A stretch of 23,965 nt of DNA, taken from positions 1 through 23,965 of IMG/VR virus record IMGVR_UViG_3300039326_000327; one strand, written 5' to 3'. Shown here piece by piece: positions 1-20,900 of the stretch. This DNA is from a virus. Made by a program: the position numbers and the translations under genes. How positions within the stretch are numbered: the first letter of the stretch is position 1; every line of letters starts with the position of its first letter. A model generated the notes under the pieces. The model made no database searches, was not told the origin of the DNA, and was given only the letters and a program-made list of their open reading frames with translations.

Positions 1-510
1 GTCTACCTGAACCAGCCCGATCTCGAATTCATTTGGGTCGGCGACGACGCGGTCGATCCGCTGCAGCAGGCGCAGACGCTGAACATCCTCGTCGCCGCCG
101 GCATCAAGACGCGCGAGGAGGCGCGGGCGGACCTGGGGCTGCCGCCGGAGGGCGGGAAGGCTACGGCGAGCGGCGTAGCGAAATGGAGCTTCGATCCCGA
201 CCAGCCGCGTGACGAGCGAGGACGGTGGACCGCCGATGGCGGGGACAGCGCGACGGAATCGAAACGACCCGAGGGCGTGCAGGTCGCATTCAATGACACG
301 GCGGCGATGATGACAGACGCCGGCGGGCCGGGGATCAACTCCGATACCCTCGCCGAAGTTATCCCCATCTGCATCGCACATGGAATTTCCGTTGCCACGG
401 ATCAATACGGTAATAAGCTGACAACTTGTCATTACGAGTGTTTTGGCGGGTTCACATTTTCGCGCACGACCAGGGGAGCCGGCGGCTGCCCACCGCTTCT
501 AGCCCCATGA
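1..510 (+). CDS. Portal protein C-terminus (partial) with a toxin-like C-terminal extension
   Basis: The frame is open from the first base, so the 5' end lies outside the window. The first 55 or so residues (LNQPDLEFIWVGDDAVDPLQQ followed by TREEARADLGLPPEGG) resemble the C-terminus of HK97-type phage portal proteins, the dodecameric ring through which DNA passes. From residue 64 a FDPDQPRDERGRWTADGG linker appears, and it is related to the linker in the two toxin-like proteins at 9883 and 11916. About 90 residues follow that I do not recognise. They contain four cysteines (ICIAHG, TTCHYECFGG, GGCPP), which are rare elsewhere here. The stop is 51 bp before a small gene with a good ribosome binding site. 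By analogy with phage structural proteins carrying variable toxin tips, this extension may be a toxin or a remnant of one. The portal assignment is fairly secure; the toxin idea is inference. Confidence 0.6.
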   Translation, partial: VYLNQPDLEFIWVGDDAVDPLQQAQTLNILVAAGIKTREEARADLGLPPEGGKATASGVAKWSFDPDQPRDERGRWTADGGDSATESKRPEGVQVAFNDTAAMMTDAGGPGINSDTLAEVIPICIAHGISVATDQYGNKLTTCHYECFGGFTFSRTTRGAGGCPPLLAP

Positions 511-560: not shown

Positions 561-950
561 ATGTCGAATGGAGATAACACTCTCGGATTTAGCCATGACG
601 ATTTCGCGCCGCGTGGCGAGATCGCCCTTTCCCCCGACGCTCTCGATCAAGCGAGAAAATTCCGCGCCAACATGGAAAAGTATGACCCGACGTCAAAATG
701 GATCGTCGGATTTTCCTGGGCCGACGACAGGAAACTTCGCCCAGACTCGCATTCCGACTGGGTCGACATCGGACCAGGCGTCGATCTCTGCGGCTACAAA
801 CCGTCGGATCTGCCGAACGATGTCGTCGAAATTCGCGATGGGCTCGAGGTCGTTTTCCTTATCCCGCGAGACATAATTCACGCCGCCAATGAGAAAAAGA
901 TAATTTCCGTGAAGAGCATTCGGGGAAATCCCGCCGTTAAGCTGGTCTGA
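561..950 (+). CDS. Small hypothetical protein, candidate immunity protein
   Basis: This 129-residue soluble protein has no signal peptide or membrane segment. GGAGG at 546-550 sits 10 bases before the ATG and supports this start. The sequence is acidic and mixed alpha/beta in appearance, with stretches such as WIVGFSWADD, DIGPGVDLCGY and DGLEVVFLIP. I do not recognise the family with confidence. It lies immediately downstream of a gene whose C-terminus has the QPRDERGRWT linker, the position expected for an immunity gene in a polymorphic toxin cassette. Directly after its stop a second, degraded copy of the portal 3' end begins, so gene tail plus this gene looks like one inserted unit. The immunity role rests on context only. 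Confidence 0.6.
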   Translation: MSNGDNTLGFSHDDFAPRGEIALSPDALDQARKFRANMEKYDPTSKWIVGFSWADDRKLRPDSHSDWVDIGPGVDLCGYKPSDLPNDVVEIRDGLEVVFLIPRDIIHAANEKKIISVKSIRGNPAVKLV

Positions 951-959
951 ATTTTCGAT

Positions 960-1330
960 CGTTGGGATTGATCGCCTGCCCAAGCTACGCCGTGCGCGCG
1001 CATCATCTTCTACGCCCTCTCGGCGCCCGTCTCCGCGTTCGCCAGCCAGGTCAAGGTTCGCCACCAGCGAGACGCTCCGCACGCAGGCGACGCAAGAGGG
1101 CCTTGTGCCGCTCAAGGCGTGGGTCAAGAGCGCGCTCGATCACGTCATCCAGGTCTACCTGAACCAGCCCGATCTCGAATTCATCTCACGTCGGCGACGA
1201 CGCGATCGATCCGCTGCAGCAGGCGCAGGCGCTGAACATTCTGGTGAGCGCCAAGGACCAAGACGGGCGCGGGCGGATCTGGGTCTGGCGCCGGAGGGAA
1301 CGTTACGGCGGGATCGGAGCGGCGCTCGCC
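960..1330 (+). pseudogene. Degraded second copy of the portal gene 3' end
   Basis: Reading across frames recovers a portal C-terminal segment: RIIFYALSAPVSAFASQV from about 999, then TSETLRTQATQEGLVPLKAW and VKSALDHVIQVYLNQPDLEF to about 1183. The 32 bases at 1153-1184 are identical to bases 1-32 of the window. After that the copies differ by indels: the base-1 copy has a GVG-coding ttgggtcgg where this copy has ctcacgtcgg, which shifts the frame. Another frame break lies near 1050, within gtcaaggttcgcc. No intact reading frame spans the segment. It is best explained as a displaced 3' end left by duplication or cassette exchange. The sequence to about 1450, including GGAEHDCKIVDEPARALARR, may be the remains of its variable C-terminus and is not identifiable. 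Confidence 0.7.
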
Positions 1331-1697
1331 CCGGCGCTGACCGATCTCGCCTTCGGCCGCCAGACGCTCGGCGGCGCGGAGCATGACTGCAAGATCGTCG
1401 ACGAGCCGGCGCGCGCCCTAGCCCGGCGAATGATCCATGTGGCTCGCCAATAACCGCAGCAGGAAATGAATTCAGGCGAGGGGAAGGTGAAGGGCGCGAC
1501 GGTTTGGGCGCTTCGTATCCGGTGGGCTTGCGCGCAAACCTTCCTTGATTCTGCCAATAAGGGCGCATAGCTACGAAACACGAGGTCTCCCTTCCAGAGG
1601 ACGAGAGGGTTGGACAGATCGCAAAGTTGGGTTAGGTTAAGGACGTCTCGTTCAGGTCGCGTTTGGCGTGACACCCTCAGTTGAATGACTGCGACAA

Positions 1698-1715
1698 GTT
1701 GGAGAATTCTCCAAC
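1698..1715. repeat. 18-bp perfect palindrome, possible operator
   Basis: GTTGGAGAATTCTCCAAC is a perfect inverted repeat with no spacer, in noncoding sequence 12 bp before a terminator-like hairpin and about 90 bp before a small gene pair. Perfect dyads of this length are typical of dimeric repressor or recombinase binding sites, but no cognate regulator is visible in the window. Confidence 0.4.
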
Positions 1716-1726
1716 CTCTGGTGGTT

Positions 1727-1752
1727 GCAGGCGGCAAGCCGCCTGCGGTTTT
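1727..1752 (+). terminator. Candidate rho-independent terminator
   Basis: A 9-bp GC-rich stem (GCAGGCGGC pairing with GCCGCCTGC, with only AA between the arms, so the innermost pairs must open) is followed on the + strand by GGTTTTCC. The T tract is short and not immediately adjacent, so strength is uncertain. It would insulate the upstream portal/immunity segment from the gene pair beginning at 1808. Confidence 0.45.
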
Positions 1753-1807
1753 CCGTTGCAGTTTAACGTTCAATCAAGGGAGATGAGAGACAATTAGGGG
1801 GACGGTT

Positions 1808-2140
1808 ATGGCAGCCACAGCAGAGAAGCGCACGATGTCTGCATCAACAGTTTCGCGTTCGTTTGGCCGATGGTCCCCACCTCCGGACAGCCTTCTGTCC
1901 GAGGCGGCTGCCGGACGCGCGGTTGAAGACCTGACAGGTGGCCTTATTGGCGTAGGGATGCCCCTTGAAGAGGCTCAGGCAATAACCAAGGCAGTCAAGG
2001 AATTCCTATTGGCCTTCCCCGGATATCGGGAACGGGCGCTTAAGGAAGTGATAAATGCCGGAGTTCCAGCCGATGAAGCCGATAAGGTGATCGAGCAAAT
2101 TGGTCAGGCAGTTCACACCGGTGAGTCGGTGAGCACGTAG
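1808..2140 (+). CDS. Small helical hypothetical protein of an accessory gene pair
   Basis: This 110-residue protein starts at an ATG preceded by AGGGGGA at 1796-1802. The N-terminal 40 residues are Ser/Thr-rich and probably disordered. The rest is predicted by eye to be helical (EEAQAITKAVKEFLLAFPGY, then RERALKEVINAGVPADEADK). No signal peptide, membrane segment or enzyme motif is visible, and I do not recognise the family. Local sequence is visibly AT-richer than the tail genes. The next gene starts 11 bases after this stop in the same direction, suggesting a two-gene unit. Position between structural genes, different base composition and an upstream terminator-like hairpin fit a phage moron, possibly a defence or exclusion function. 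That is inference. Confidence 0.6.
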   Translation: MAATAEKRTMSASTVSRSFGRWSPPPDSLLSEAAAGRAVEDLTGGLIGVGMPLEEAQAITKAVKEFLLAFPGYRERALKEVINAGVPADEADKVIEQIGQAVHTGESVST

Positions 2141-2151
2141 TTCGGAGCGAT

Positions 2152-2616
2152 GTGTTGGCTGGCGAGCCCCCAAAAGACGGCCCGGGCGGCGACCCAGCCG
2201 GCAAATCGACAACCAGCGGGGTTGCGCTCAACCCCGCGGCGTTAGATATTTTACGTCGAACAGTAGCACGCTACAGTACCGAGCGTAAGCAACTGAACCG
2301 AACATATGGTGACGGTGGTCGCTTTGGAGAGTGGATTGGTGGCCTCGAATATCAGCCGGGGCATATTGCGCTAGTTACGATCATTGGCCTACTGCTGATC
2401 TTACTCGTGGCGGTTCTCGGAATTGTGTTCGCGTCGGCAGATTTGCCTTCTGGCTCCGCTAAAATCGAAAACATAAAAAATGTCATATTGTCGATATTAG
2501 GGCTCACAGGAACAATTTTGGGGTACATCTTCGGAAAAAGCGGGGCGCTAGATAAACGTGTGGGTAGGGAAACTACGCCAGAATCAAAACCTGACCGTCC
2601 TCAGCAACCGAATTGA
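2152..2616 (+). CDS. Two-transmembrane hypothetical protein of an accessory gene pair
   Basis: This 154-residue protein starts at GTG, with GGAG at 2144-2147. The N-terminal 70 residues are hydrophilic, with a Gly/Pro-rich start and a basic stretch (LRRTVARYSTERKQLNR). Two hydrophobic helices follow, at about residues 71-94 (ALVTIIGLLLILLVAVLGIV) and 110-129 (NVILSILGLTGTILGYIFGK). The tail is charged and Pro-rich. Both termini would be on the same side of the inner membrane. The gene is AT-rich compared with its neighbours and is coupled to the gene at 1808. A small soluble protein followed by a two-helix membrane protein recalls exclusion or abortive-infection pairs, but no family match is claimed. 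A holin is less likely because of the long soluble N-terminus and the distance from the lysis block. Confidence 0.6.
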   Translation: MLAGEPPKDGPGGDPAGKSTTSGVALNPAALDILRRTVARYSTERKQLNRTYGDGGRFGEWIGGLEYQPGHIALVTIIGLLLILLVAVLGIVFASADLPSGSAKIENIKNVILSILGLTGTILGYIFGKSGALDKRVGRETTPESKPDRPQQPN

Positions 2617-3071
2617 CACAATCCGATAATTGCGCTGCCGAGTGTTGCGGCGAGCAGCCGCAAAAATCCGGGCTCAGCTCGCGCCCCATGGCGAACCCGA
2701 TGATGTGCGCGGCCTGATCGTCGTTTGACAGTTCACTGGCGCTACGACAATGCAGACCTATTTCAGTACGGCAAATTCGCGCGAAACTTCGTCGTAACGC
2801 CCTTGTTTTCGGAGCAACCCTGTTTTCCAGGATGGCGGCGACCGCTGAACGCGTGATTGTACGAACTTGGCGCCGTAGACCGAAAACCAAGGTCTTGTAG
2901 TTCGGGCGGCGAACCACGTCGAAATTCCGAGGGCTATGCACCGTCGGACACTCCCACGTTATCTCAGTAGCGCCAGCACCCGACCTACACGCACTGCACG
3001 ACGGCGCGAGTCGCGCCGCATTGTCGCCACGCTATATCGACCCCTTCCCTTCCCCACAGGAGACCTCCCCC
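2617..3071. other. Intergenic stretch with no confident gene
   Basis: About 455 bases separate the accessory gene pair from the tail tube gene. An open frame exists on the minus strand (2573-2941, with a CGCSPQHSAAQL segment), but it overlaps the 3' end of the membrane protein gene and shows no ribosome binding site or recognisable domain. In a complete siphophage, capsid, head-completion and tail-terminator genes would lie between portal and tail tube; none is found here. The last bases carry the AGGAGA at 3058-3063 that serves the tail tube start. Confidence 0.45.
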
Positions 3072-3806
3072 ATGTTCGTATTCGGCTCCGGCGTGCTGAT
3101 CGGCACGCCGCAAGGCGGGACGCCGATCAATTTCGGCCTCGCGCAGGAAATCTCGCTCAACGTCGCGATGTCGACCAAGGCGCTCTACGGCCAATATAAC
3201 TTTCCCGTCGCCATCGGCTCGGGCACGCGCAAGATGACCGGCAAGGCCAAGCTCGCGCGCATTTCCGGCCAGGCGCTCGGCTCGCTGTTTTTCGGCGTCA
3301 GCCCGAGCGCCGGCGGCGTGCAGACGCAGTTCGGCGAGGCGGCGAGCGTTCCCTCGTCCTCCCCCTACGCCTACACGACGAGCCTGCACACGACCTTCGT
3401 CGCCGACCAGGGCGTCGTCTACGCCGCGAGCGCGCTGCCCTTGAAGCAAGTCGCGTCGAGCCCGACGACCGGGCAATATTCCGTCTCCGCCGGCGTCTAC
3501 ACCTTCGCCGCCGGCGACGCGGGCGCGGCGGTGCTCATCTCCTACACCTACACGGTGGCGTCGAGCGGCGAGAGCATCGCGGTCGCCTCGGCGCTCATCG
3601 GCCCGTCGATCACGTTCTCGGCCAATCTCTTCGCCTCCGACCCGACGACCGGCAAGCAGTTCTCGGTGCTGCTGTACAATTGCGTCGCTGACAAACTCGC
3701 GTTCGGCACCAAGCTCGAAGACTTCATGGTGCCCGAGCTCGACTTCGCCTGTTTCGCCAACGCGGCCGGCCAAGTGTGCCAGCTCAACTTCGGAGACGCC
3801 GCGTGA
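3072..3806 (+). CDS. Phage major tail tube protein
   Basis: This 244-residue protein is the likely subunit of the tail tube. The start is set by AGGAGA at 3058-3063 ahead of ATG 3072; an in-frame TTG at 3021 has no comparable signal. The body is rich in Gly, Ser, Thr and Ala with alternating beta-strand character. Typical features are an early GVLIGTPQGGTPINFGLAQE, a KMTGKAKLARISGQALGSLF segment as in tail tube families of alphaproteobacterial phages, and a C-terminal PELDFACFANAAGQVCQLNF strand. Residues 116-163 form a separable beta module (GVYTFAAGDAGAAVLISYTY) that also occurs in the tip protein at 15567. Its stop overlaps the GTG of the chaperone gene by four bases. Order with chaperone and tape measure downstream supports the call. 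Confidence 0.75.
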   Translation: MFVFGSGVLIGTPQGGTPINFGLAQEISLNVAMSTKALYGQYNFPVAIGSGTRKMTGKAKLARISGQALGSLFFGVSPSAGGVQTQFGEAASVPSSSPYAYTTSLHTTFVADQGVVYAASALPLKQVASSPTTGQYSVSAGVYTFAAGDAGAAVLISYTYTVASSGESIAVASALIGPSITFSANLFASDPTTGKQFSVLLYNCVADKLAFGTKLEDFMVPELDFACFANAAGQVCQLNFGDAA

Positions 3807-8254: not shown

Positions 8255-8868
8255 CGACGCCGCCATCCTTCCCGACGCTGCCCGGCCAGGGCTGGAGCGT
8301 CCACAAGACGCCGAGCTTCGCCACGATCGTCGCCGGCCACGTCTCTGGCCGCGAAGTGCGCGACGCGCTCTATCAAAACCCGATCTGGCGGTTCGAGTTG
8401 AGCTTCGACGGGCTCGCGTCGGATTCGGCTTCCTATCCCGGCCTCGGCGCGCAATCGCTGCAAAGCCTGATGGGGCTGTTCTTGCAATGCCAGGGGCAGT
8501 TCGGGACGTTCCTCTACACGGACCCGACCGACAATTCCGCGACGAGCCAGTCCTTCGCGACGGGCGACGGGTCGACCACGACGTTCACTTTCGCACGCGC
8601 GCTCGGCGGCTTCCTCGAGCCCGTGGGATGGGTGACGAGCGTTTCCCAGGTCACCGTCGCCGGCGTCGCGCAGAGCACGGGCTGGTCGCTGTCGACGCCG
8701 AACAGCCTCGTCTTCGCCACAGCGCCGGCGAGCGGCGCGCTGATCGGCGCATCGTTCGCCTACGCCTTCCAATGCCGCTTCAACGACGACGCGGCGGATT
8801 TCGAGCAGTTCATGCAGAACCTCTGGATCCTGCAAAGCCTCAAATTCCGATCGGTGCGCACGTCATGA
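8251..8868 (+). CDS. DUF2460 distal tail protein
   Basis: This 205-residue protein starts at GTG 8251, which overlaps the preceding stop, with GGTGAGG just upstream. It spans a single DUF2460 domain: FPTLPGQGWSVHKTPSFATI at the N-terminus, then SGREVRDALYQNPIWRFELS, a GDGSTTTFTFARALGGFLEP beta segment, and FNDDAADFEQFMQNLWILQS near the end. In the Rhodobacter GTA the DUF2460 protein is the distal tail protein linking tube and baseplate hub. Here it follows a TIM-barrel protein that ends in a second DUF2460 domain, so the particle may contain two kinds of distal tail subunit. Its stop overlaps the ATG of the DUF2163 gene by four bases. Confidence 0.85.
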   Translation: MTTPPSFPTLPGQGWSVHKTPSFATIVAGHVSGREVRDALYQNPIWRFELSFDGLASDSASYPGLGAQSLQSLMGLFLQCQGQFGTFLYTDPTDNSATSQSFATGDGSTTTFTFARALGGFLEPVGWVTSVSQVTVAGVAQSTGWSLSTPNSLVFATAPASGALIGASFAYAFQCRFNDDAADFEQFMQNLWILQSLKFRSVRTS

Positions 8869-9734
8869 AAACCGCGTCGAGCGCACTCATCGCCTTTCTC
8901 AACGCCGCGCGCGCCAACCCCGACGCGCCGATCGCCTTCGCCGATTGCTTCACGTTCACGCTCGCGACGGGAACGATCCTCACCTATACGAACATCGATC
9001 AGCCGGTCATCTACAACGGCTTCACTTTTCTCGCCGACGGCCCGCTGGTGCAGGGGCTCAAATACAAGGCTTCGGTCGGGCTCGAGGTCGACAAGCAGCA
9101 GATCACGATCGCCGCGCGGCCGACCGACCTCGTCAACGGATCGCCGTTTCTCAACGCGCTGCGCGATGGCGCCTTCGACGGCGCGATCGTGCAACGCGAC
9201 CGCGTGTTCATGAGCGCGCTGGGCCAGACGCCGATCGGCGGCGTGACGCTGTTCCACGGCCGGGTGTCGACGATCGATCAGGTCGGACGCACCAGCGCGA
9301 CGATCACGGTGGCGTCCGACCTCGTCGTGCTCGACTATGACATGCCGAGGAATCTTTATTCGCCGACCTGTCTGCATACGCTCTACGACTCCGGGTGCGG
9401 CGTGGTGCGCGGAACGTACGCCGCCAGCGGAACGGTCGGCGCCGGTTCGACGGCGAGCCTCATCGATTTTTCCGGCGCGCTGGCGAGCCACGCGCAGGGC
9501 TCGATCGTCTTCACCTCCGGCGTCAACGCCAATCTGCGCGCGACGGTGAAGAGCGTCGCCGCCGGCGCCTCGCTATCGCTAATGTATCCCCTGCCCTCGC
9601 CGCCGGCGACCGGCGACGCCTTCACCGTCTACGCCGGCTGCGACCATACGCAGGCGACCTGTTCGTCGCGCTTTTCCAATCTCGCCAACTTCCGCGGCTT
9701 CCCCTTCGTGCCGCCGCCGCAGATCGCCTACTGA
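8865..9734 (+). CDS. DUF2163 / phage BR0599-type baseplate hub protein
   Basis: This 289-residue protein starts at ATG 8865, overlapping the previous stop. The N-terminal half is the DUF2163 domain (FADCFTFTLATGTILTYTNI, then YKASVGLEVDKQQITIAARP). The C-terminal part matches the BR0599-type domain and ends FSNLANFRGFPFVPPPQIAY. Four C-terminal cysteines, C169, C178, C259 and C266, are placed as in the related lambda gpL and GTA hub proteins, which bind an iron-sulfur cluster; cluster binding here is inferred. In GTA-like clusters the next gene is the NlpC/P60 tail peptidase, but here 5.3 kb of toxin and immunity genes intervene. A diverged copy of its last 21 codons occurs at 11806-11868. 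Confidence 0.85.
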   Translation: MKTASSALIAFLNAARANPDAPIAFADCFTFTLATGTILTYTNIDQPVIYNGFTFLADGPLVQGLKYKASVGLEVDKQQITIAARPTDLVNGSPFLNALRDGAFDGAIVQRDRVFMSALGQTPIGGVTLFHGRVSTIDQVGRTSATITVASDLVVLDYDMPRNLYSPTCLHTLYDSGCGVVRGTYAASGTVGAGSTASLIDFSGALASHAQGSIVFTSGVNANLRATVKSVAAGASLSLMYPLPSPPATGDAFTVYAGCDHTQATCSSRFSNLANFRGFPFVPPPQIAY

Positions 9735-9882: not shown

Positions 9883-11025
9883 ATGCTTTTCGAGCAATTA
9901 CGCAAGCAATGGGACGCGCACGGTTCGCGCGCACCGCTGCATGCTGCGCTGACCTTCGTCGACGACTGGCTGGTCCTTGGCGCCGGGACGAGGCTCGCCT
10001 TGGCGAAGCGCGGCGTTTGCTCGCCGGCAATCGACGACGCCCGCGTCAGCGCGTTGCTTTGCGCCGCCTACCAACGGCCGCTCGAACCCCGCGCGCTCAG
10101 CTATATCGGGCGAGCAATCGTCAAGCACGGCGAAGGCGATACGACGCTCGCCTTGATGCACTTGGCGATGACCGCCCCGTGGCCTCTGACCCAACCGAAG
10201 CAAGCGGCCTACCGGCTATTCATGGCCGACGCCTTGATGAAGGCGGGCATGACCACGCGCGACGTCTGGCATGCGCTCGGTTTCGACTCGGCGCTGATCG
10301 AGCGGATCGAAAAATACTCGCCGGACCAGCCGCGCGTGCCCGCCGGCAACGGCCGCCCCAGCGGTCAATGGACGCGCGACCGAGCCGAAAATGCCACGGC
10401 TCCGGGCCGATCCGCCGGCTCGGGAGCGGGAAACGACAGGCCACCGGAACCGCAATCATCGGCCGGCGGGAAGGCAGGCTCAAGCGGTTCGCATAATTCT
10501 ACCGAAATCTCCGTAACGCTTCACGAGCCATCTCAACCCGATCAGATTCTCAGCGACGCCAATCCTGATTCGATCCAGCCGGGAGAGCAATACGCCCAAA
10601 TCGCGATCGGCAAGGTTCCCTCCAAGGGCGATCCTCGGATCGATGGGACGACCAGCGCGTTGGTGGACATTCTCGCGGCGGTCGACACCGCCATCCCGAG
10701 AGGCGTCGGACCGCTCTACGGGATTGCAGTGCATGTGGCATTTGCGAACGCTGTGCGCGCGGCGAACCTTCCCGGCGTCGGAACTGACAGCGTCGAGCAG
10801 AGCTTCAACCTGAACTACGTGGTCGATTATGGTGTAGACGGCAGCATCAGAACCGACGTCTCGCTCTGGGACGATGCCCACGAAAACGTTATCGCGATTT
10901 ACGACTTGAAGACCGGTGGGGCAAAGCTTTCCAACGCGAGGGCGGAGCAACTGAGGAACGGGGTGACTCTAGAAGAAGGCGCCGACAAGCCGGTCGTCTT
11001 CGAGCTTCGGATTAAGCGCAATTAG
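9883..11025 (+). CDS. Polymorphic toxin-like protein with PD-(D/E)xK-like C-terminus
   Basis: This 380-residue protein starts at the first ATG in a frame that is open but has no start upstream; the ribosome binding site is weak. Residues 1-144 form a helical domain that aligns along its length with the N-terminus of the protein at 11916 and that I do not recognise. Residues 145-164 are the YSPDQPRVPAGNG...SGQWT linker. Residues 165-235 are low-complexity (Ser, Gly, Pro). The C-terminus has H284 (AVHVAF), E305, D325 (RTDVSL) and D341-x-K343 (IYDLKTGG), the pattern of a PD-(D/E)xK nuclease core. Variable tip after a shared N-terminus is the architecture of polymorphic toxins. The 3' end overlaps a convergent gene by 14 bases, probably its immunity gene. 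Nuclease activity and delivery are inferred. Confidence 0.72.
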   Translation: MLFEQLRKQWDAHGSRAPLHAALTFVDDWLVLGAGTRLALAKRGVCSPAIDDARVSALLCAAYQRPLEPRALSYIGRAIVKHGEGDTTLALMHLAMTAPWPLTQPKQAAYRLFMADALMKAGMTTRDVWHALGFDSALIERIEKYSPDQPRVPAGNGRPSGQWTRDRAENATAPGRSAGSGAGNDRPPEPQSSAGGKAGSSGSHNSTEISVTLHEPSQPDQILSDANPDSIQPGEQYAQIAIGKVPSKGDPRIDGTTSALVDILAAVDTAIPRGVGPLYGIAVHVAFANAVRAANLPGVGTDSVEQSFNLNYVVDYGVDGSIRTDVSLWDDAHENVIAIYDLKTGGAKLSNARAEQLRNGVTLEEGADKPVVFELRIKRN

Positions 11026-11716
11026 GTTGAGACGCGGGGCGGCTTTCGCCCTCCGTCACGGTCGAATCCACCCCCTCGAGACAATCGGCGATCGGCGGAA
11101 GGCGAGCTTGTCTCCGCCTAGCGTCGATTATGCGACGAACCGCGGCGCGAAATTGCGCCGTATCATCAAGGAGTGCAAGCAGCGCCGCTGCTTCAGAATG
11201 CAGCTTTACCCGCCGCTCGTCGTCGGCGGGATAACTGAGCATTTCATGAAATCGCTTGCGCGACAGCTCAACTTCATGGTTGAGCCCCGCTGCGACGGCG
11301 GCGCTGAACATATGGATCAACTGCCGATTTGGCACTGCGTTGAGAAATCGGGAGATCGTGGCGATCGAAGCGAATTTTGCTCTCATGGCCAACACTGCTT
11401 CGGCCGCCTGAGCCGCCATCCTTTCGATCAAGGGGCGAAACTGCTCGGAATTCTCGAAGGATATGAAGCCGGCGCGCGCCACTCGATAGCCGACATTAAA
11501 CGCCAATCCGGGCATCTCGTACCACAACCAGCTTGCGCCGACATTCAGATAGGAGCCCCTGGAGAAGCCGCTGGGCTGGAATTCGATCATGATCGCCCAA
11601 TAACGCTGGTCGGAAAGCCAGACGCGCGATTGCCCGCGGCGCACGCATCCGATCGGCGCCAAGGCCGCTTTCGCCGCCGCGGCGATCAAACGGCCATGTT
11701 CGTTCTGCGTCGCCAT
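11012..11716 (-). CDS. DUF4304-like protein, candidate immunity to the 9883 toxin
   Basis: This 234-residue soluble protein is the only convincing minus-strand gene in the window. Its stop (TTA at 11012-11014 on the + strand) lies inside the end of the toxin gene. The N-terminal half, with ALAPIGCVRRGQSRVWLSDQ, IEFQPSGFSRGSYLNVGASW and a WLWYEMPG segment, resembles the DUF4304 fold, which often neighbours toxins. The C-terminal half is helical (MFSAAVAAGLNHEVELSRKR, then ALLALLDDTAQFRAAVRRII) and could be a binding surface. The opposite orientation is unusual for an immunity gene but could allow expression from its own promoter when late phage genes are silent. I found no clear promoter or strong ribosome binding site on its 5' side. 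Confidence 0.6.
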   Translation of the reverse strand: MATQNEHGRLIAAAAKAALAPIGCVRRGQSRVWLSDQRYWAIMIEFQPSGFSRGSYLNVGASWLWYEMPGLAFNVGYRVARAGFISFENSEQFRPLIERMAAQAAEAVLAMRAKFASIATISRFLNAVPNRQLIHMFSAAVAAGLNHEVELSRKRFHEMLSYPADDERRVKLHSEAAALLALLDDTAQFRAAVRRIIDARRRQARLPPIADCLEGVDSTVTEGESRPASQPNCA

Positions 11717-11805
11717 AAGATTTCAGTCCCGTCCCGATCGGCGGGCGACCGTCGAATCAATAGCGCCTTCGGAGCGACGCCTCAACACGGCGGATTCGGT
11801 CGAGA

Positions 11806-11868
11806 TTCAGCAACCTCGCCAACTTCCGGGGCTTCCCCTTCGTGCCGCCGCCGCAGATCGCCCACTGA
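11806..11868 (+). repeat. Displaced copy of the DUF2163 gene 3' end
   Basis: These 21 codons encode FSNLANFRGFPFVPPPQIAH and a stop, matching the last 20 residues of the DUF2163 protein (9672-9734) except for the final residue. By eye 57 of 63 bases agree, and five of the six differences are silent, so the copy derives from a related phage gene and not from a fresh duplication. It ends 47 bases before the second toxin gene, with no intact gene upstream in this frame. It marks the left edge of a second cassette. Confidence 0.85.
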
Positions 11869-11915
11869 CCGGCGCTCGCTGAAAATCTTCGAACGCGCGA
11901 ACGGCGGAGTTCGCC

Positions 11916-13262
11916 ATGATCCCGCATGAGTTGGAGAAGGCCTGGGCGGCGCGCGCTTCGCTCGGGCCGCTCCTCAGCGCGCCGACCTTCGCAGGCGATC
12001 GCCTGATGCTCGGCGCGCAGACCGAGATCGCGGTCGCGGGCCGGCGAAGCGCAGACGGCGAAGCGCGCATGATCGCACTGCTGTCGGCGGCCTACAGCGC
12101 GCCGGTCTCCGATCGCGCGCTCGCCCATCTTCGCCGCGCCCTCGAAAGACAAGCCGAAGGCGACGCGCTGCTGTCTTCGACGCATCTCGCGTTGGCCGGC
12201 TACTGGCCGTTACGAGATCCGCTGGCGGCGGCGAAGCGCGTGTTCTTCAGCGACGGCCTGACGAGATGCGGCGCTGCGCCGGCGATGATCCTCGCCGCGC
12301 TCGATCTCGACCCGCGCCGGCTCGATGGTCTCGAGCGCTTCGACCCCGCCCAGCCGCGCGTGCCCGCGGGCAACGGCGTCGAGAGCGGCCGCTGGACCAG
12401 CGACGGCGGCGCAACCGGCGGGAACGAGGTCGCCGTCGGCGACGAGCCGCGATCGGACGAGGATTCGCTGTTTTCGGAAAACCTTCCGGCGCGTGTCGTC
12501 CAAGGTCTCATACGGCTTGCGGCGCGGAGCAGCGTTCCGTCGATCGTGTTCGACACGTTGTTCGTGCCGTCGGCCGGCAAAAGCGGCGTCACCGAGGGCG
12601 ATGTTCCCGGCCGAACCGGTCTGCAATATTCCTGGGACAAGCCTGCCGGACAGGTCCTCTCTCGCGTCTTCATCGACGGCCACTGGGTCACGCTGACTGG
12701 GGGCCGCGACAACCTCAACCAGTTCTATCGCGACGCCGACGGCAACGTCATCGCGCGCGCCGCCGGCGACGCGCTGGTCGTCGATTTGGGGTCGCTCGAT
12801 CGCGCGCGCGAACGGCTTGCCGAAGGCTCCGGCGGTCAGCCGCCAAGCGACCCCTCGTCGCGCGAACCCAAGCTCTGCCCAGACAAGTCGCGCGAGGATA
12901 TAACCGGTCGTTCGGAAGCCGCACTCGCTTATCAGGAATACGTCAGCGGTCTCCCGCGGGAATTCATCATAGAGTTCAATGGCGTTGAATACGACGGGTG
13001 CGATCAACTCACGGGTCTATTGAAAGAAGGCAAGGGGAACTACGCACACCTATTAACGAAAGACGGCACTTGGCAGGATTGGGCGTCAGATTCCAGAGAT
13101 GATATTCAGAACCAAATAATGCGGCAGTCCAAAGCCGCGGCCCTCAGCGGCCGGCGCGTGGCGTGGTATGTTCAACAGAACCCGGTCGCCAATATTTTCC
13201 GCGAATGGGTGAACGATCTAGGCATTACGAATATTGACGTATATTACGATCCGGGGCCTTAG
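11916..13262 (+). CDS. Polymorphic toxin with Tox-REase-5-like C-terminus
   Basis: This 448-residue protein has GGAG at 11906-11909 supporting the ATG. Residues 1-141 are homologous to the N-terminus of the 9883 protein (shared pattern LLSAAYSAPVSDRALAHLRR, HLALAGYWPLRDP). The linker FDPAQPRVPAGNG...SGRWT spans 142-161. A middle region of about 165-335 includes LQYSWDKPAGQVLSRVFIDG and is unrecognised. The C-terminus from Y339 (YQEYVSGLPREF, GVEYDGCD, LLKEGKGNYAHLL, QIMRQSKAAA, ITNIDVYYDP) fits the Tox-REase-5 family of PD-(D/E)xK nucleases, with D in YDG and the E-x-K of EGK as the expected catalytic residues. Pseudomonas TseT, a type VI effector, has this domain with an Imm52 partner. The two genes downstream are Imm52-like, which strengthens the call. 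The first of them begins two bases after this stop. Confidence 0.82.
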   Translation: MIPHELEKAWAARASLGPLLSAPTFAGDRLMLGAQTEIAVAGRRSADGEARMIALLSAAYSAPVSDRALAHLRRALERQAEGDALLSSTHLALAGYWPLRDPLAAAKRVFFSDGLTRCGAAPAMILAALDLDPRRLDGLERFDPAQPRVPAGNGVESGRWTSDGGATGGNEVAVGDEPRSDEDSLFSENLPARVVQGLIRLAARSSVPSIVFDTLFVPSAGKSGVTEGDVPGRTGLQYSWDKPAGQVLSRVFIDGHWVTLTGGRDNLNQFYRDADGNVIARAAGDALVVDLGSLDRARERLAEGSGGQPPSDPSSREPKLCPDKSREDITGRSEAALAYQEYVSGLPREFIIEFNGVEYDGCDQLTGLLKEGKGNYAHLLTKDGTWQDWASDSRDDIQNQIMRQSKAAALSGRRVAWYVQQNPVANIFREWVNDLGITNIDVYYDPGP

Positions 13263-13264
13263 CT

Positions 13265-14074
13265 ATGAGCGACGAATCCTACCGTTTGGCCGCCTGGTGG
13301 GGCAGCCGGCAAATAACCATAGAGCAATTTGCCGACGATTTCGGGGCATTCCTCAACACCCTGCCCGAAATCGATTCGATTTTCCTCAGTTGGCTCAACT
13401 ATCGACCTTCCGATAAGCCGCGATTTCCCGTGCCGATGGCCCACGAGGACACGATTTGCGCCGCGACGAAAGCGCAATCGCGTTACGACAAACCGAAAGA
13501 CAAAATCTGGCCGGAAATGGGCTTTCACTTGAGCGGCCGCCACGCGGGCTCGCCTGAATACTTTCGACGCCCGGAATTTGAAATGTCGACCATAGTTTGG
13601 GCCGGCGCCTACGGCGGCAACAATCCTCACTGCAATCACGTCGAAATTCAAATTGGCACGAAACGGATCTCTACGGGGCAACCCTGGCGCGCTTCGGAAC
13701 TGATTCCGCTCATGAAGCTCGTGCTGCGTATCTGGCAGCCCCGCGAAATGAGCGTGGACTGTTGGCGCTACGGCGACCTTAGGGCGTCCGTGCCGGACGC
13801 GGTGGGTGCGGCGCGCCATGCAGCGCTTTCCCCTCGCTTGCAGCTTCTCAACCCGCTTCAAGATCGGACGTTACTCCCCTGGGTCGGCTGGCTGACCTAT
13901 CTGCCCGCGGACCTCGCCGCCAAAGTGACGATCCCTGGGGAAATCGCGGTCGAGCGCCTCGACGACGGCGGGATCATCGCCACGCTCTGCGACGAGCCGT
14001 TCACCATCGACAATCCCATCCACACGGCGCGCGCGCGAGCGATGGAGGCGGCGATCAGGCCGGTGCAGTCCTAG
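13265..14074 (+). CDS. Imm52-like immunity protein (first copy)
   Basis: This 269-residue soluble protein begins two bases after the toxin stop, so it is probably translationally coupled. Motifs consistent with Imm52 are MGFHLSGRHAG, a PWRASELIPLMKLVLRIWQP stretch, and a C-terminal VGWLTYLPADLAAKV followed by VERLDDGGIIAT and DNPIHTARARAMEAAIRPVQ. Imm52 proteins are known partners of Tox-REase-5 toxins (for example TsiT with TseT in Pseudomonas), so gene order and domain pairing agree. It presumably binds and blocks the nuclease tip in the cytoplasm of the producing lysogen. Base composition is somewhat less GC-biased than the tail genes. A related gene follows after 147 bases. Confidence 0.82.
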   Translation: MSDESYRLAAWWGSRQITIEQFADDFGAFLNTLPEIDSIFLSWLNYRPSDKPRFPVPMAHEDTICAATKAQSRYDKPKDKIWPEMGFHLSGRHAGSPEYFRRPEFEMSTIVWAGAYGGNNPHCNHVEIQIGTKRISTGQPWRASELIPLMKLVLRIWQPREMSVDCWRYGDLRASVPDAVGAARHAALSPRLQLLNPLQDRTLLPWVGWLTYLPADLAAKVTIPGEIAVERLDDGGIIATLCDEPFTIDNPIHTARARAMEAAIRPVQS

Positions 14075-14221
14075 GCCTTGGGCGCGGCGCAAGCCGGAGT
14101 CGGCACACGGCAATTCAAGATTGAGCGTCGCCTGCCGAGCGAGCGCGGCAATTTTTTCGAATGCCGGGCGACCGCAAAATTGGTAGCGTCGTTTCTCAGC
14201 CCGACGCCCGAAGGCAAGAAC

Positions 14222-15001
14222 ATGGCGCAAACTCTGTACAGCCTCAACGGGTTTTGGAGTTCGCAGCGTTTGACTGCCGAGGAATGCGCGGAGAGATTTC
14301 GTTCGTTCGTCAACGAGCTTCCGAGTATCGACCCCATATACGAAACTTGGCTTCGTATGTCGCCGTCGAAGAAACCTTTTTGTTCCGTCCCGATCTCGCT
14401 CGACGAGGCGCGTCGGCTGGTCGAGAAGGGTCGATTGCGCGCCGTTGTGGCGGAGAGATTTTCGCAGGAAGGCGGCTTTCATCTCGGCGGCCGCAACGTT
14501 GGACCGCATCCGCGTGACGACGTCGGGCCATCTGACGCCATGACGGAAGTGCGCGCCGGAGTGTGCTGTCCTGATGTCAGTCAGTGCAACTTCATCGTCA
14601 TGCACCTCAGCAGAGTCCGCCTAACCACGGGACGCCCATGGCGCGCTTCCGAGATTCGCCGGTTGATGAGACTGGTTCTTCGCGTCTGGTCTCCCCGCGA
14701 AATCAGCGTCGATGGCGGACAACACCTCTACATGGCTGCCAAGACGGAATTCATTAACTCGATCGGACAAACGCGAACACGGGTGCTGATCCCGCGCATC
14801 GGTTGGCTCACCTATCTGCCTGCCGACCTCGCCGCTAAGGTGAGGCTGCCGGCGACCGTCGACGTCGAGCGCCTCGATGACGGCGGAGTCGTCATTTCAA
14901 TTTGCGAAGACCTCTTTCGGTCGACAACCCTGATCACATGGCGCGAATTCGGGCGGTCGAGCACGCCGTGCGTCCGATTCAATCCTGACTCATCTCGGTG
15001 A
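14222..15001 (+). CDS. Imm52-like immunity protein (second copy, frameshifted near its end)
   Basis: This 259-residue paralog of the preceding gene shares GGFHLGGRNVG, PWRASEIRRLMRLVLRVWSP, VSPREISVDG-like context, IGWLTYLPADLAAKV and VERLDDGGVV. ATG 14222 is preferred over an in-frame TTG at 14078 because alignment with the first copy begins here. After F232 the reading frame loses homology. In the frame one base back, from 14920, it reads VDNPDHMARIRAVEHAVRPI and stops at 14986-14988, matching the end of the first copy. A one-base deletion around 14915-14921 is therefore likely, leaving 27 unrelated residues at the C-terminus. It may still fold, since most of the domain is intact, or it may be decaying. 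Extra immunity paralogs are usual in polymorphic toxin loci. Confidence 0.75.
   Translation: MAQTLYSLNGFWSSQRLTAEECAERFRSFVNELPSIDPIYETWLRMSPSKKPFCSVPISLDEARRLVEKGRLRAVVAERFSQEGGFHLGGRNVGPHPRDDVGPSDAMTEVRAGVCCPDVSQCNFIVMHLSRVRLTTGRPWRASEIRRLMRLVLRVWSPREISVDGGQHLYMAAKTEFINSIGQTRTRVLIPRIGWLTYLPADLAAKVRLPATVDVERLDDGGVVISICEDLFRSTTLITWREFGRSSTPCVRFNPDSSR
14915..14988 (+). other. Frameshift scar: original 3' end of the second Imm52 gene in another frame
   Basis: The zero frame reads LFRSTTLITW here, while the alternative frame from 14920 to the TGA at 14986-14988 restores the DNP-H-AR-RA-E-A-RP-QS pattern of the first copy. No slippery heptamer is evident, so a mutation, or a sequencing error, is more likely than programmed shifting. 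Confidence 0.75.
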
Positions 15002-15570: not shown

Positions 15571-17942
15571 GCTGGTTTCGCCAAAAGAACGGCCAAAAGC
15601 CCGATTACACCGGGCTGCAACTGCAAACCTCGGTCAACACGCTGCCGATCCCGATCATCTGGGGCCGAACCAAGGTCGCGGCGAACGTGATCTGGTACGC
15701 CAATTTCCAGACGCACGGCAGCAGCGGCGGCGGCGGCAAGGGCGGCATCTTCAGGTCGCCGACCAGCGGCTACACCTACAGCGCCGACCTGATCATGGCG
15801 CTGTGCGAGGGCCCGGTGTCCGGCATCGGCATCATCTGGCGCGACCAGTCGACCTATACGCTGGCCGAACTCGGCCTGACCTTCTTCGAAGGCGCGACGC
15901 CGCAAACGACCTGGGGCTATCTCCAGGCGAATTATTCGATCGAAGCGCTCGCTTATCAGGGCACGTCCTACGTCTGCGCGGCAAGCTACGCGCTCGGCGA
16001 CAACGCCGACATCGGCAACCACAATTTCGAGATCATCGGCATTCTCGCCGGCACCGGCGTCAATGGCGTCGACGCCGATCCAGCTGAGGTCATCAACGAC
16101 TTTCTGACCAATCCGCAATATGGCGCCGGCTTCTCTGGCGCCAGCATCGACGCGACGACGCTGTACGGCTCGGGCGGCGACGCGAGCTTGCAAACCTATT
16201 GCAAGGCGCTCGGCATCGCCTTCAGCCCGGCGTTGGTCAACCAGGAACAGGGATCGAGCATCCTGTCGCGCTGGTTGCAACTTCTGAACTGCGCCGCCGT
16301 CTGGAGCGGCGGAATGCTCAAGTTCATCCCTTATGGGGACGAAGTGATATCCGCCGGCAATGTGACGAAGACGGTCCAGTATCCGGTCCCGACCCCGGTG
16401 CAGGAGGGTTCCGGCGTCATTACGCCGCCCTCGATCGCGGTCTGCACCGCCGCGCAATTCTTCTCCGACGGCGGCGTGAAATATGCCTTCACCGGCGTCG
16501 CGCTGACCTATATCGGGGCCTCGCAGCCATCGTCGGCCGGGACATACGGAATTTCGCCGGCGGGAACCTATCTCTTCGCCGGCGGCGACGAGAACCAGGT
16601 CGCGCTGATCTCGTACACATTCGCCAACGCGACGAGCTACGTCCCCGACCTCACGCCGATCTACAATCTGACGGACCTCGATTTCGTCGACGAAAAAGGC
16701 AATAAGGATCCGGTCCAGGCCGCGCGCGTCGATCCCTTCTCGCTGCCGACGATTCAGCGGGTCGAATGCCTGTCGCGCACGAATCAGTACGGCGCCACGC
16801 CGGTCGAGGCGCGCGATCAATCGCAGATCGAAATCTACGGCCCGCTCGTCGGCTCGACGATCCAAGGCCACGAAATCTGCGACGAGATCAACGTCGGCCC
16901 CATCGTCGCGCAGACTATCCTGCAACGCCAGCTCTATGTGCGCGCGCATTTCGCCTTCAAGCTGTCGTGGGAATACGGCCTCCTCGATCCGATGGACGTC
17001 GTGACGATCAGCGACGCCAACCTCGGACTCTCCGATTATCCCGTGCGCATCACCGCGATCGAAGAGGACGACAAGGGCCTGCTCACGATCACGGCCGAGG
17101 AGTTGACCGTCGGCGTCTCGACGCCCGTTCTCTACCCCAATTCCGGGCCGTCGGGGTTCCTGCCGAACCAGGGCGCCGCCGCCGACCCGGTCAACGACGC
17201 CCCGCTGATCTACGAGCCGCCGGCCACGCTGACCGGCGGGTCGCCCCAGATTTGGGTCGGCGCGGCGGGCGGCTCGGGCGGCGTCGCCGATCAGAACTGG
17301 GGCGGCGCCAATGTCTGGATATCGCTCGACAACGTCACTTATTCGCAAATCGCCGTCATCGCGCAGCCGCTGCGCCAAGGGATCCTGACCGCCGCGCTCG
17401 CCTCGGCGAGCGGATGGGATGCGACGGACACGTTGAGCGTCAATCTGGCGGAGAGCGCGGGCGCCCTCTCGGGGACATCGCAGGCGTCGGCGCAGCAGGG
17501 CGCTACGCGCTCGCTCGTCGACGGCGAACTCCTCGCCTATGAGAGCGCGACCTTGACGGGGACGAGCGCCTACAATCTGACCGGCCTGCAGCGCGGCCTC
17601 TACGGGACCGCGCCAACGGCGCATTCGTCGGGCGCGCCCTTCGCGCGGCTCGACGGCGCCGTCGTCGCTTACGATCTGCCGTCGAATTACATCGGCCAGA
17701 CGCTCTACTTCAAGTTTCAAAGCTTCAACGTGTTCGGCGCTGGCGTGCAGAGCTTGTCGACTTGCGCGGTCTATACCTACGTGCCTGCCGGCGCGGGAGT
17801 CGCCGATCCGATCGCCGCGCAGCTCGCGGGCGGAATGCCGCTCGATCTCGGCTTTGTCAATCTCACTCCGGCCCTCGCGGACGATTTCGGGACGGTCGGC
17901 CCCAGCGTCGTTCTCGGCGCGCTCGATCTTGGAACAGCCTGA
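15567..17942 (+). CDS. Phage-tail_3 family tail tip protein (host-specificity, megatron-like)
   Basis: This 791-residue protein, coupled to the peptidase gene, corresponds to the C-terminal half of GTA gp15: an N-terminal [20 protein letters not shown] segment, [20 protein letters not shown], a central region with [20 protein letters not shown], a [20 protein letters not shown] segment, and the [13 protein letters not shown] motif near residue 670. It should sit at the tail tip below the hub and contact the cell surface. The TIM-barrel part found on the same polypeptide in GTAs is here on the separate protein at 5765. Residues about 305-352 hold a beta module ([20 protein letters not shown]) shared with the tail tube protein. 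Confidence 0.82.
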
Positions 17943-20900
17943 TGACGGAACAGCTTCAGCTTAGACGCGGAACCGCGACGCAAGTCGGCGCCTTCACCGG
18001 CGCGCAAGGCGAGGTCGTGGTCGACACGACGAACAATCGCGCCGTGGTGAACGACGGCTCGACCGCGGGCGGCTGGCCCGCGGCCAAGCTCAGCGAGGTC
18101 GTCACCAACACGCGAACGGCGGTGTCGGACGCAGCGTATTCGGCGCTCGCTGCCGACCGGCTGATCGCGTACACTGCGCTGACCGGCCCGCGCGTCGTCA
18201 CGCTGCCGGCGGCGTCGGCCTACCCGACAGGGACGGCGCTGACGATCGTCGACGAGACCGGCAATTGTTCGTCGAGTAAAACGATCACGGTCGATCGCGC
18301 CGGCGCCGACACGATCGATGGGGCGACGAGCTTCGTCATCAACGCCGCCTACGCCGGCCTTGAGCTCGAAAGCAACGGGTCGGGCGCCTGGACGATTCTG
18401 TCTCCGAAGCCCAACGTCATCGCCTCGCTGGTCGGCGTCGGCACGGCGCCGGACCCGAACAATCCGCTGTCGGTTTATGGACCGAGCGCTCTGTTCAACG
18501 GCGCGACGAACATGAATGTGACTGTCAACAAGGCCGCCAGTGCGGACACGGCGTCGCTCATCTTCGAGGATGGGTTCTCCGGCCGCGCCCAGCTGGGCCT
18601 CAACGGCAGCGACAATTTCAGCTTCAAGGTGTCGCCGAACGGATCGAGCTGGACCACCGCCATCGCCCTCGACGCGACGACCGGCGTCGCGACCTTCGCC
18701 AACCAGCGCACCGCCGTCTCCGACGCGGCCTATTCGGCTTTGGTCACCGACCGGTTGATCGCCTACACCGCGCTCACGGCGGCGCGCATCGTCACCCTGC
18801 CGGCGGCGAGCGCGTTTCCCGCGGGCCAATCGCTCACCATCGCCGATGAAAGCGGGTCTTGCTCGGCGACCGATACGATCACTGTCGCCGCGGCGGGAAG
18901 CGACACGATCAGCGGCGGTTCATCGAGCGTCCTCAACCAGGCCTATGCCTTCGTCGCGCTGGAGAGCAACGGCGCCGGCAAGTGGACGATCGTCGCGGCA
19001 TCGACGGCCTCGTCGTCCGTCGCGGCTTTCACCAGCGGAACGATCAATGGCGCGAGTATCGGCGCGTCGAATCCTTCGACCGGCGCCTTCACCACGCTCT
19101 CGCTCGCGCGACACGCCGTCGCCGACGCCGCCTATACCGTCGCCGCCGGAATCTCGACCGTCGCCTACACCGCGCTGACCGCGGCGCGCGTCGTCACCCT
19201 GCCTGCGGCGAGCTCCTTCGCCGCCGGCCAGCAATTGCTCGTCGTCGACGAGAGCGGCGCCTGCTCGGCGACCAACACCCTGACCGCGACCCGCGCCGGC
19301 TCGGATGCGATCAACGGCGCGACGACGGCGGTCCTCTCCACCGCCTACGCCTATCTCGCTCTGGAGAGCAACGGCTCCAACGCCTGGACGATCGTCGACC
19401 AATCGACGCTGAGCATGGCGCAGCAGGCCGCCAGCGCCGTCGCGATCAGCGGCGGCGCAATCAACGGAACGACGATTGGCGCGACGACGCCGGCCGCAGT
19501 GACCGCGACGACGCTCTCGCTCGCGCGACACGCCGTCGCCGACGCCGCCTATACCGTCGCCGCCGGAATCTCGACCGTCGCCTACACCGCGCTGACCGCG
19601 GCGCGCGTCGTCACCCTGCCTGCGGCGAGCTCCTTCGCCGCCGGCCAGCAATTGCTCGTCGTCGACGAGAGCGGCGCCTGCTCGGCGACCAACACCCTGA
19701 CCGCGACCCGCGCCGGCTCGGATGCGATCAACGGCGCGACGACGGCGGTCCTCTCCACCGCCTACGCCTATCTCGCTCTGGAGAGCAACGGCTCCAACGC
19801 CTGGACGATCGTCGACCAATCGACGCTGAGCATGGCGCAGCAGGCCGCCAGCGCCGTCGCGATCAGCGGCGGCGCAATCAACGGAACGACGATTGGCGCG
19901 ACGACGCCGGCCGCAGTGACCGCGACGACGCTCTCGCTCGCGCGACACGCCGTCGCCGACGCCGCCTATACCGTCGCCGCCGGGGTTTCGACCGTCGCCT
20001 ATACGTCGATCACGGCGGCGCGCATCGTCGCCCTTCCGGCGGCAAGCTCCTTCGCCGCCGGCCAGCAAGTGCTGATCGTCGACGAATCGGGGGCGTGTTC
20101 CGCGACCAAGACGATCACCGCCAGCCGCGCCGGCTCGGACGCGATCAACGGCGCGACCAGCGCCGTCATCGCCAGCGCCTACGGCTATCTCTGCCTGGAG
20201 AGCAACGGCTCGAACGCCTGGACCGTCGTCGACCAGAACCAGGTCGCCATGATCGGCGACAGCGGCTCGGGCGGCGCGGCGGGCTACGTTCCCGCGCCGC
20301 CGTCCGGCTCGGCCGCCTATAACGAAGTGCTCGGCGCCGGCGGCTCCTGGGTCGGTCCAATGGCCGGTTTCCGCAATCGCATCATCAACGGCGCGATGGC
20401 GATCGACCAGCGCGGCGTTTCGTCGAGCGCGGCGAGCGTCACCGGCTATATCTCGGGAACCACGCTGACGGTGACCGCCGTCACGTCGGGCGTTCTTGTC
20501 ACTGGCCAGGCGCTGAGCGCGACCGGCATGACGGCGGGGACGTACATCACCGCCCTCGGGACGGGGACGGGCGGGACCGGAACCTACACGGTCAACAATT
20601 CGCAGACGCTGTTCTCGTCGGGCTCGCCGGGCGCGATCGCCGGCGCTGGTCAGCAAATCGTCGCCGCCGCCGCGCTCGCCTATACGATCGACCGGTTCTA
20701 CGCCTATTGCACCGGCGCCAACATCTATGGGCAGAAAATCGGCGGCTCGGCCCCCGATCAATATCTCTATCGATTCACCGGCGCGGCCTCGGTCACCGCG
20801 ATCGGCTTCGCCCAGCGCATCGAGACGGCGAACAGCTTCGACCTCGCGGGGACGACGGCGACTCTGAGCGTCAAGCTCGCTAATTCGCTGCTCACCACCG

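Follow-up and report, generated by a model that had tools for sequence, protein, structure and literature searches.

A candidate membrane toxin-antitoxin pair in an accessory slot of a phage, with relatives of the putative toxin behind varied soluble partners

Introduction

Why does a phage carry two small, AT-rich genes among the genes of its virion? The pair in question lies in a stretch of 23,965 bases, IMG/VR virus record IMGVR_UViG_3300039326_000327, which we refer to as the window. An earlier note, made from the sequence alone, read the two genes as a moron that may encode an exclusion or defence pair. Here we examine the genes (P1 and P2), the place they occupy in the phage, their recurrence elsewhere and the partners of P2-like proteins.

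Results

The P1 and P2 genes

1808..2140, plus strand: P1, 110 aa, soluble helical candidate antitoxin; its homologue lies beside a P2 homologue in genome G272
2152..2616, plus strand: P2, 154 aa, candidate membrane toxin; homologue in G272

The coordinates and frames that the earlier note gave for a two-gene unit at 1808-2616 are correct. By eye, GGGGGAC stands directly ahead of the P1 start and GGAG directly ahead of the GTG start of P2. The genes are 11 nt apart, a short spacing of the kind expected between the adjacent small genes of a type II toxin-antitoxin pair. Length is no proof that these open reading frames (ORFs) are genes, since shuffling the insert yields two frames as long in 121 of 600 cases. 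It is the conservation of both frames in another genome, G272, that argues that P1 and P2 are genuine genes.

P1 has no hydrophobic segment and P2 has two (residues 67-102 and 110-129). Single-sequence structure predictions are all helical for both proteins, at low confidence (pLDDT 66.7 for P1, 63.6 for P2), in agreement with their earlier description as a soluble helical protein and a two-helix membrane protein. The low-confidence P2 model places a disordered start, a helix at 28-52 and a short helix at 58-63 ahead of the two membrane helices, after which the protein ends in GTILGYIFGKS.

The pair has a GC content of 54.6%, against 65.1% for the whole window. Of 2316 sliding windows as long as the pair, 42 fall below it in GC, and the lowest 8 of these start at 1961-2241. 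Third-position GC is 0.55 in P1 and 0.50 in P2, compared with 0.83-0.91 in the tape-measure and tail-tube-like genes and 0.63-0.76 in other accessory genes. The low GC reported earlier thus stands, whereas the claim that the pair is AT-richer than everything around it goes too far: GC is just as low in a gene at 561-950 (54.1%) and across 1500-1807 (54.2%).

An identical pair (809 of 809 bases) is present in each of two further IMG/VR records, one of which aligns to the window across its entire 13,933 bases. Frameshifted, adjoining gene fragments on the left side of the pair could indicate that it is non-functional passenger DNA inside a decaying phage segment. We consider this very improbable given that both frames are intact and base-identical across three records, are preceded by ribosome-binding-like sites (by eye) and have in-frame homologues in G272.

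A probable insertion missing from relatives

1430..3037, no strand: stretch of 1.6 kb with the pair, taken as an insertion from blastn depth against other fetched loci
1725..1748, plus strand: terminator-like hairpin, 10-bp stem (1725-1734/1739-1748), then GGTTTTCC and a short T run
23177-23965, strand not given: endolysin (phrog_1493 1.4e-15, Amidase_2 7.2e-15)

With the phage's own records excluded and depth sampled every 50 nt, blastn against the other fetched loci gives a depth of zero between 1451 and 3001; matches stop at 1429 and restart at 3038. A two-gene accessory insert that is missing from close relatives and deviates in base composition does look like a moron, as had been proposed. 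An insertion-sequence origin was rejected, as long direct repeats were not found at the insert borders. An imperfect 15-nt inverted repeat (80%) near both borders, at 1480-1494 and 3041-3055, may be due to chance.

The hairpin said to precede the pair exists, but as a terminator it looks weak, with a z of -1.39 and equally good folds in 13 of 200 shuffles, and it was not among the results of the terminator scan. A promoter scan, of the sigma-70 type alone, returned no site in 1400-3100, with 0.9 expected in shuffles.

A holin, another lysis protein or a virion protein is hardly credible. A weak match to a holin profile (phrog_297, E 0.077) speaks for it, while the endolysin lies at the window's far right end and the insert is absent from every other fetched locus. 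None of the relatives found is a conserved virion or housekeeping protein, the kind of homologue that the earlier note regarded as damaging to its proposal.

A recurrent accessory slot

995..1300, plus strand: remnant of the 3' part of a portal gene, with shifted frames (its DNA is 67-83% identical to the portal genes of many relatives)
1306..1418, plus strand: 3' fragment of a tail-terminator-like gene, abutting the portal fragment (residues 90-124 of L113:9519-9953, 63%)
3072..3806, plus strand: tail-tube-like structural gene, the right border of the slot (phrog_8234 1.4e-46; phrog_2729, virion structural, 3.5e-4)

The names tail terminator, tail tube and capsid (the last for L113:6537-8168) follow gene order, the PHROG matches being of unknown function (phrog_8150 for the terminator-like gene, phrog_8234 for the tail-tube-like gene). 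Head genes had been expected where the pair sits. In relatives, however, the interval between the terminator-like and tail-tube-like genes comes after the genes for the protease-like protein and the presumed capsid; in L113, a weak head-protease match (1802-2857, 5e-7) and a neck-connector match (8701-9522, 2.2e-6) both precede the terminator-like gene. Loss of the head module, considered from the adjoining portal and terminator-like fragments, was rejected because relatives with such arrays keep their head genes upstream.

For this interval we surveyed relatives that have both a tail-tube-like gene and a complete terminator-like gene (100 rows, the window's own phage excluded). The gap measures 20-370 nt in 78 rows (some of these short-gap rows are duplicates or near-duplicates) and 455-908 nt in 5. 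The remaining 17 rows, which represent 15 different contigs because L030/L108 and L029/L097 are duplicates, have gaps of 1.7-7.0 kb. In all 17 large-gap rows the tube protein is at least 74% identical to that of the window. With large cargo in 17 of 100 rows, P1-P2 occupy a recurrent accessory slot. Its cargo comprises extra or partial portal genes (13 of the 17 rows), variable portal tips, Imm-NTF2 matches in L019 and L035 and, in L026 (4118-4713), a HigB gene (2.2e-13) with a HigA-like helix-turn-helix gene. Another occupant of the slot is therefore a standard toxin-antitoxin pair. Its proteins are unrelated to P1 and P2, and HigB, an RNase toxin, is unlike P2 no membrane protein.

Variable portal ends and other features of the window

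1..510, plus strand: portal protein C terminus, with linker DPDQPRDERGRWTADGG and a variable tip (phrog_12 2.6e-5, phrog_2662 0.0018; relatives found)
561..950, plus strand: small, AT-rich candidate immunity gene that follows the portal tip (homologues in L086, L087, L016, L090 and L034)

The homologues of 561-950 in L086, L087, L016 and L090 adjoin a homologous tip. Phage_portal scored over its cut-off in all six scanned ORFs with variable tips (L029, L115, L016, L112, L019 and L041), and L019:496-2289 is a portal fused to a Colicin_E5 ribonuclease domain (8.5e-10, over cut-off). The portal ends of relatives form 51 distinct ORFs, some of which may be frameshifted fragments; 33 extend more than 60 aa past the core and 20 carry a G(R/Q)(W/F)T linker.

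In polymorphic toxin systems, the toxin is carried on the MuF protein beside the portal, as the accessible parts of three papers describe (PMC5576092, PMC11699363, PMC3482391); these parts contain no toxin-portal fusion. The likeness to MuF toxins is one of context: a head-module protein bears a toxin domain and is followed by a small gene (PMC5576092, in the part available). The carrier here, in contrast, is the portal protein, and P1-P2 is no such fusion.

The window holds a second tip array at 9883-15001. Two proteins, 9883-11025 and 11916-13262, share their N-terminal part; the latter carries Tox-REase-5 (1.9e-11) and is followed by Imm52 at 13265-14074 (2.6e-11) and 14078-15001 (4.1e-11). 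Further along, near the tail genes, 17942-21466 encodes a large protein whose translation shows long near-identical internal repeats by eye. At the record's left end, a 32-base repeat is identical between 1-32 and 1153-1184. A second record (L250) likewise begins there, at window base 3, and contigs may end at this point because portal ends are repeated.

The pair recurs in another genome

Searching 298 genomes from the family of G003 (the genome of Roseiarcus fermentans locus L116), we found a clear P2 match in one, G272 (per-genome E-value 8.3e-15; BLASTP 35% over 120 aa, E 5e-19). Directly upstream, at L193:1141-1452, lies a homologue of P1, a protein that was absent from the query (BLASTP 34% over 61 aa, E 4e-8). 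G272 keeps the order and adjacency of the pair and is the sole independent locus with both genes. Beside the pair there, one gene resembles SH3 and Clp-protease families weakly, below cut-off in both cases, and another encodes an rve-type transposase. A P1 homologue upstream of a P2 homologue in non-phage surroundings indicates that the pair recurs as a unit elsewhere, and the two genes are thus kept together, as in type II toxin-antitoxin pairs, in one independent case. In a P1 profile search of 385 genomes, G272 was the only convincing match. Seven others (E 8.5e-5 to 0.008), all within frames 295-1058 aa long, were treated as unrelated, and a P2 match in G008 (E 0.026, in a 436-aa frame) was rejected as chance.

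Family searches were largely negative. P1 and P2 gave only weak matches in Pfam, PHROGs and NCBIfam (none better than E 0.036, and all below the curated cut-off wherever one exists), and P1 matched no antitoxin family in these three libraries or in PADLOC. The P1 model had no Foldseek match at E up to 0.001. For the pair, the co-occurrence with prophages or defence islands that the earlier note proposed to look for was not seen: PADLOC, the collection of known defence families, returned nothing for either protein at E up to 1, and by eye the 17 kb around the G272 pair hold no phage genes, prophage or defence island.

Scans of sequence collections, seeded by short exact peptide patterns and so reaching close relatives only, turned up no relatives besides the phage itself: for P1 and P2 in viral_contigs (by sequences, two-sequence alignments and a motif scan) and in the phages and plasmids collections, and for P2 in genome_contigs. 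The G272 proteins and two other P2-like proteins yielded no further relatives among plasmids.

P2-like proteins and their upstream partners

Three overlapping searches, none using partner information, gave P2 relatives in 8 distinct genomes. The P2 sequence alone picked out 2 of the 298 genomes searched, a profile that joined it with the homologue from G272 picked out 4 of 397 (E up to 0.001), and a six-row family profile 5 of 398 (E up to 1e-5). The relatives are small, have two membrane segments and in most cases end in a C terminus like LGYIFGKS. Directly upstream of the relative, on the same strand and at a spacing of -23 to +18 nt, 7 of the 8 genomes encode a soluble partner; the relative in G248 (L194) has no such partner.

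The partners are of four types. One is P1-like (G272). Two are Panacea proteins. That of G312 matches in Pfam at 2.5e-18; that of G369 does so at 4.1e-5, narrowly below cut-off, and matches NCBIfam SocA at 6e-18, again below its cut-off. Three are DUF6864 proteins, with a match over cut-off in G1308 (9e-15) and under it in G141 and G614 (1.3e-5 and 9.5e-5). The seventh, in G592, is of the ImmA/IrrE type (Peptidase_M78 5.8e-18, with capP and RmrA matches too), and its gene adjoins a patatin gene and an oligonucleotide-cyclase gene. P2-type proteins thus sit behind varied soluble partners that include two known antitoxin domains, Panacea and ImmA. The Panacea, ImmA/IrrE and DUF6864 partners point to a toxin-antitoxin or defence pair.

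How firmly do these proteins belong together? When the 7 further relatives are scored with the profile of P2 and its G272 homologue, all but one exceed each of the 164 controls (two-segment six-frame ORFs from fetched loci) and each of the 900 shuffles. Two of these six pass the best shuffle (11.9 bits) by a small margin, G1308 with 15.0 bits and G141 with 13.0, and the exception, the G592 member, reaches 8.8 bits against 9.6 for the best control. The relatives in G369, G312, G614 and G248 were first found with P2 or with this same profile, so that their rank is partly selection. With four of the six passing relatives found by the same queries, the control says that such scores are unusual for membrane ORFs, and no more. 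The per-genome E-values of G248 (6.3e-4, 298 genomes) and, initially, G614 (7.5e-4, 397 genomes) are near chance. The wider P2 family, which rests on short, membrane-biased similarity, is best regarded as diffuse.

In the reverse direction, 27 of 199 genomes had a Panacea match. Of these 27 loci, 7 have a small membrane-protein ORF directly downstream, or 8 if a 66-aa frame in L226 is counted, and the one P2-like gene among them was that of G312 again. A DUF6864 search of 200 genomes found none; its control search recovered one of three assigned genomes, the other two being under cut-off, so that this negative is a poor guide to rarity. Our literature search turned up no paper on DUF6864.

In three genomes, a DUF6864-like protein is followed directly by a two-segment membrane protein (L213:5623-6365, L214:5633-6240 and L216:5845-6557). 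The L214 pair lies among phage tail genes and the L216 pair near a cytosine methylase. DUF6864 with a two-segment membrane protein is possibly an unrecognised toxin-antitoxin or defence pair. At L215:6192-9277, genes for an ImmA/IrrE-like protein, a small membrane protein, a patatin effector and an oligonucleotide cyclase adjoin one another in a CBASS-like arrangement.

Discussion

We think it probable that P1-P2 is a mobile, partner-swapping toxin-antitoxin unit that forms a moron, in which P2 is a membrane toxin and P1 an antitoxin of a new kind. Published systems offer close parallels. Panacea antitoxins neutralise small toxins that have a charged N-terminal part and C-terminal membrane helices and depolarise the cell, according to the available part of PMC8832971. 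The accessible text of a second study describes Panacea, ImmA and an AAA ATPase as hubs of a partner-swapping toxin-antitoxin network, and predicts that Panacea touches the unstructured start of one toxin and the short helix before its membrane region (PMC10440598). It further reports, in the same portion, that an ImmA-type pair of phage Kita depolarises membranes and protects against some phages, its toxin being incompletely neutralised (PMC10440598).

P1-P2 resembles PanAT in that a small protein with a soluble start and C-terminal membrane helices is encoded next to a soluble one, and two P2 relatives (G369 and G312) sit behind Panacea genes. The predicted layout of P2, from a low-confidence model, is of the same kind as that of the published Panacea-contacted toxin, with a start, a short helix and a membrane region. 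This likeness is one of layout and of relatives with Panacea neighbours. RosmerTA (RmrT/RmrA, the Kita system), as far as the available text goes, is likewise a phage-borne two-gene unit with a membrane-acting toxin, a property that in P2 is predicted, and one weak P2 relative follows an ImmA-type protein with an RmrA-profile match. Unlike these antitoxins, P1 has neither a Panacea (SocA/DUF4065) match in Pfam or NCBIfam nor a protease domain, Peptidase_M78 or RmrA match. P1-P2 cannot, for want of either domain, be named a PanAT or RosmerTA system; that it may work like them remains.

Several observations count against a toxin-antitoxin reading. P1 matches no antitoxin family, P1 and P2 occur together at a single independent locus, and DUF6864 is no established antitoxin. 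The partner gene comes first here, whereas PanAT order is mostly toxin-first: in the accessible part of PMC10440598, the toxin leads in 78% of Panacea pairs and 58% of ImmA pairs.

Two alternatives place the pair in phage conflict by other routes. P1-P2 could be a superinfection-exclusion or abortive-infection pair outside the toxin-antitoxin class, with P2 blocking entry of foreign phage DNA at the inner membrane and P1 as helper or sensor. A two-segment membrane protein within a phage moron would suit this role, and P2 relatives occur with a DUF6864 partner among phage tail genes (L214) and beside a CBASS-like locus (L215). We nevertheless find it unlikely: two P2 relatives follow Panacea and a weak one follows an ImmA-type protein, both known antitoxin domains, and by eye the 17 kb around the G272 pair show no phage genes. 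A toxin-antitoxin unit fits P1-P2 better than dedicated superinfection exclusion.

Alternatively, P1, P2 or both could be immunity genes that guard against a toxin tip, on the portal or tail of this or related phages, that has since been lost. The pair lies just downstream of the decayed portal fragment, the slot's cargo includes portal tips and immunity-like genes, and one portal tip of the clade is a colicin E5 domain. This explanation is improbable, as G272 has no tip in the region examined and the Panacea, ImmA and DUF6864 proteins that precede P2 relatives do not have an immunity fold.

If P1-P2 is a toxin-antitoxin unit, we infer the toxicity of P2, its neutralisation by P1, the trigger and the benefit as follows. 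P1 would be made first, bind P2 and keep it silent, probably by contacting the disordered start and the helix ahead of the membrane segments. Loss, overwhelming or disabling of P1, for example when another phage infects or the prophage is lost, would free P2 to assemble in the inner membrane and collapse the membrane potential. Such a collapse would stop growth and block any phage in the cell. A role in antiphage defence is plausible by analogy, as related units defend.

A more far-reaching proposal is tentative, and we hold it with some doubt. P1 may found a new antitoxin family, and the P2 family may be a single membrane toxin that swaps partners and is kept in check by four or more unrelated soluble proteins (P1, DUF6864, Panacea and ImmA/IrrE). 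The slot before the tail tube would then be a dock for conflict genes, loaded with portal-borne toxin tips or toxin-antitoxin pairs by recombination at duplicated portal and terminator-like ends.

The pair stands among virion genes, in a slot that related phages reuse for conflict genes and that adjoins portal genes with variable ends, one of them colicin-like. If our interpretation is true, a helical antitoxin candidate and DUF6864 would join the proteins able to silence membrane toxins. One toxin family would then move between antitoxins, an idea that can be tested with a few small gene pairs.
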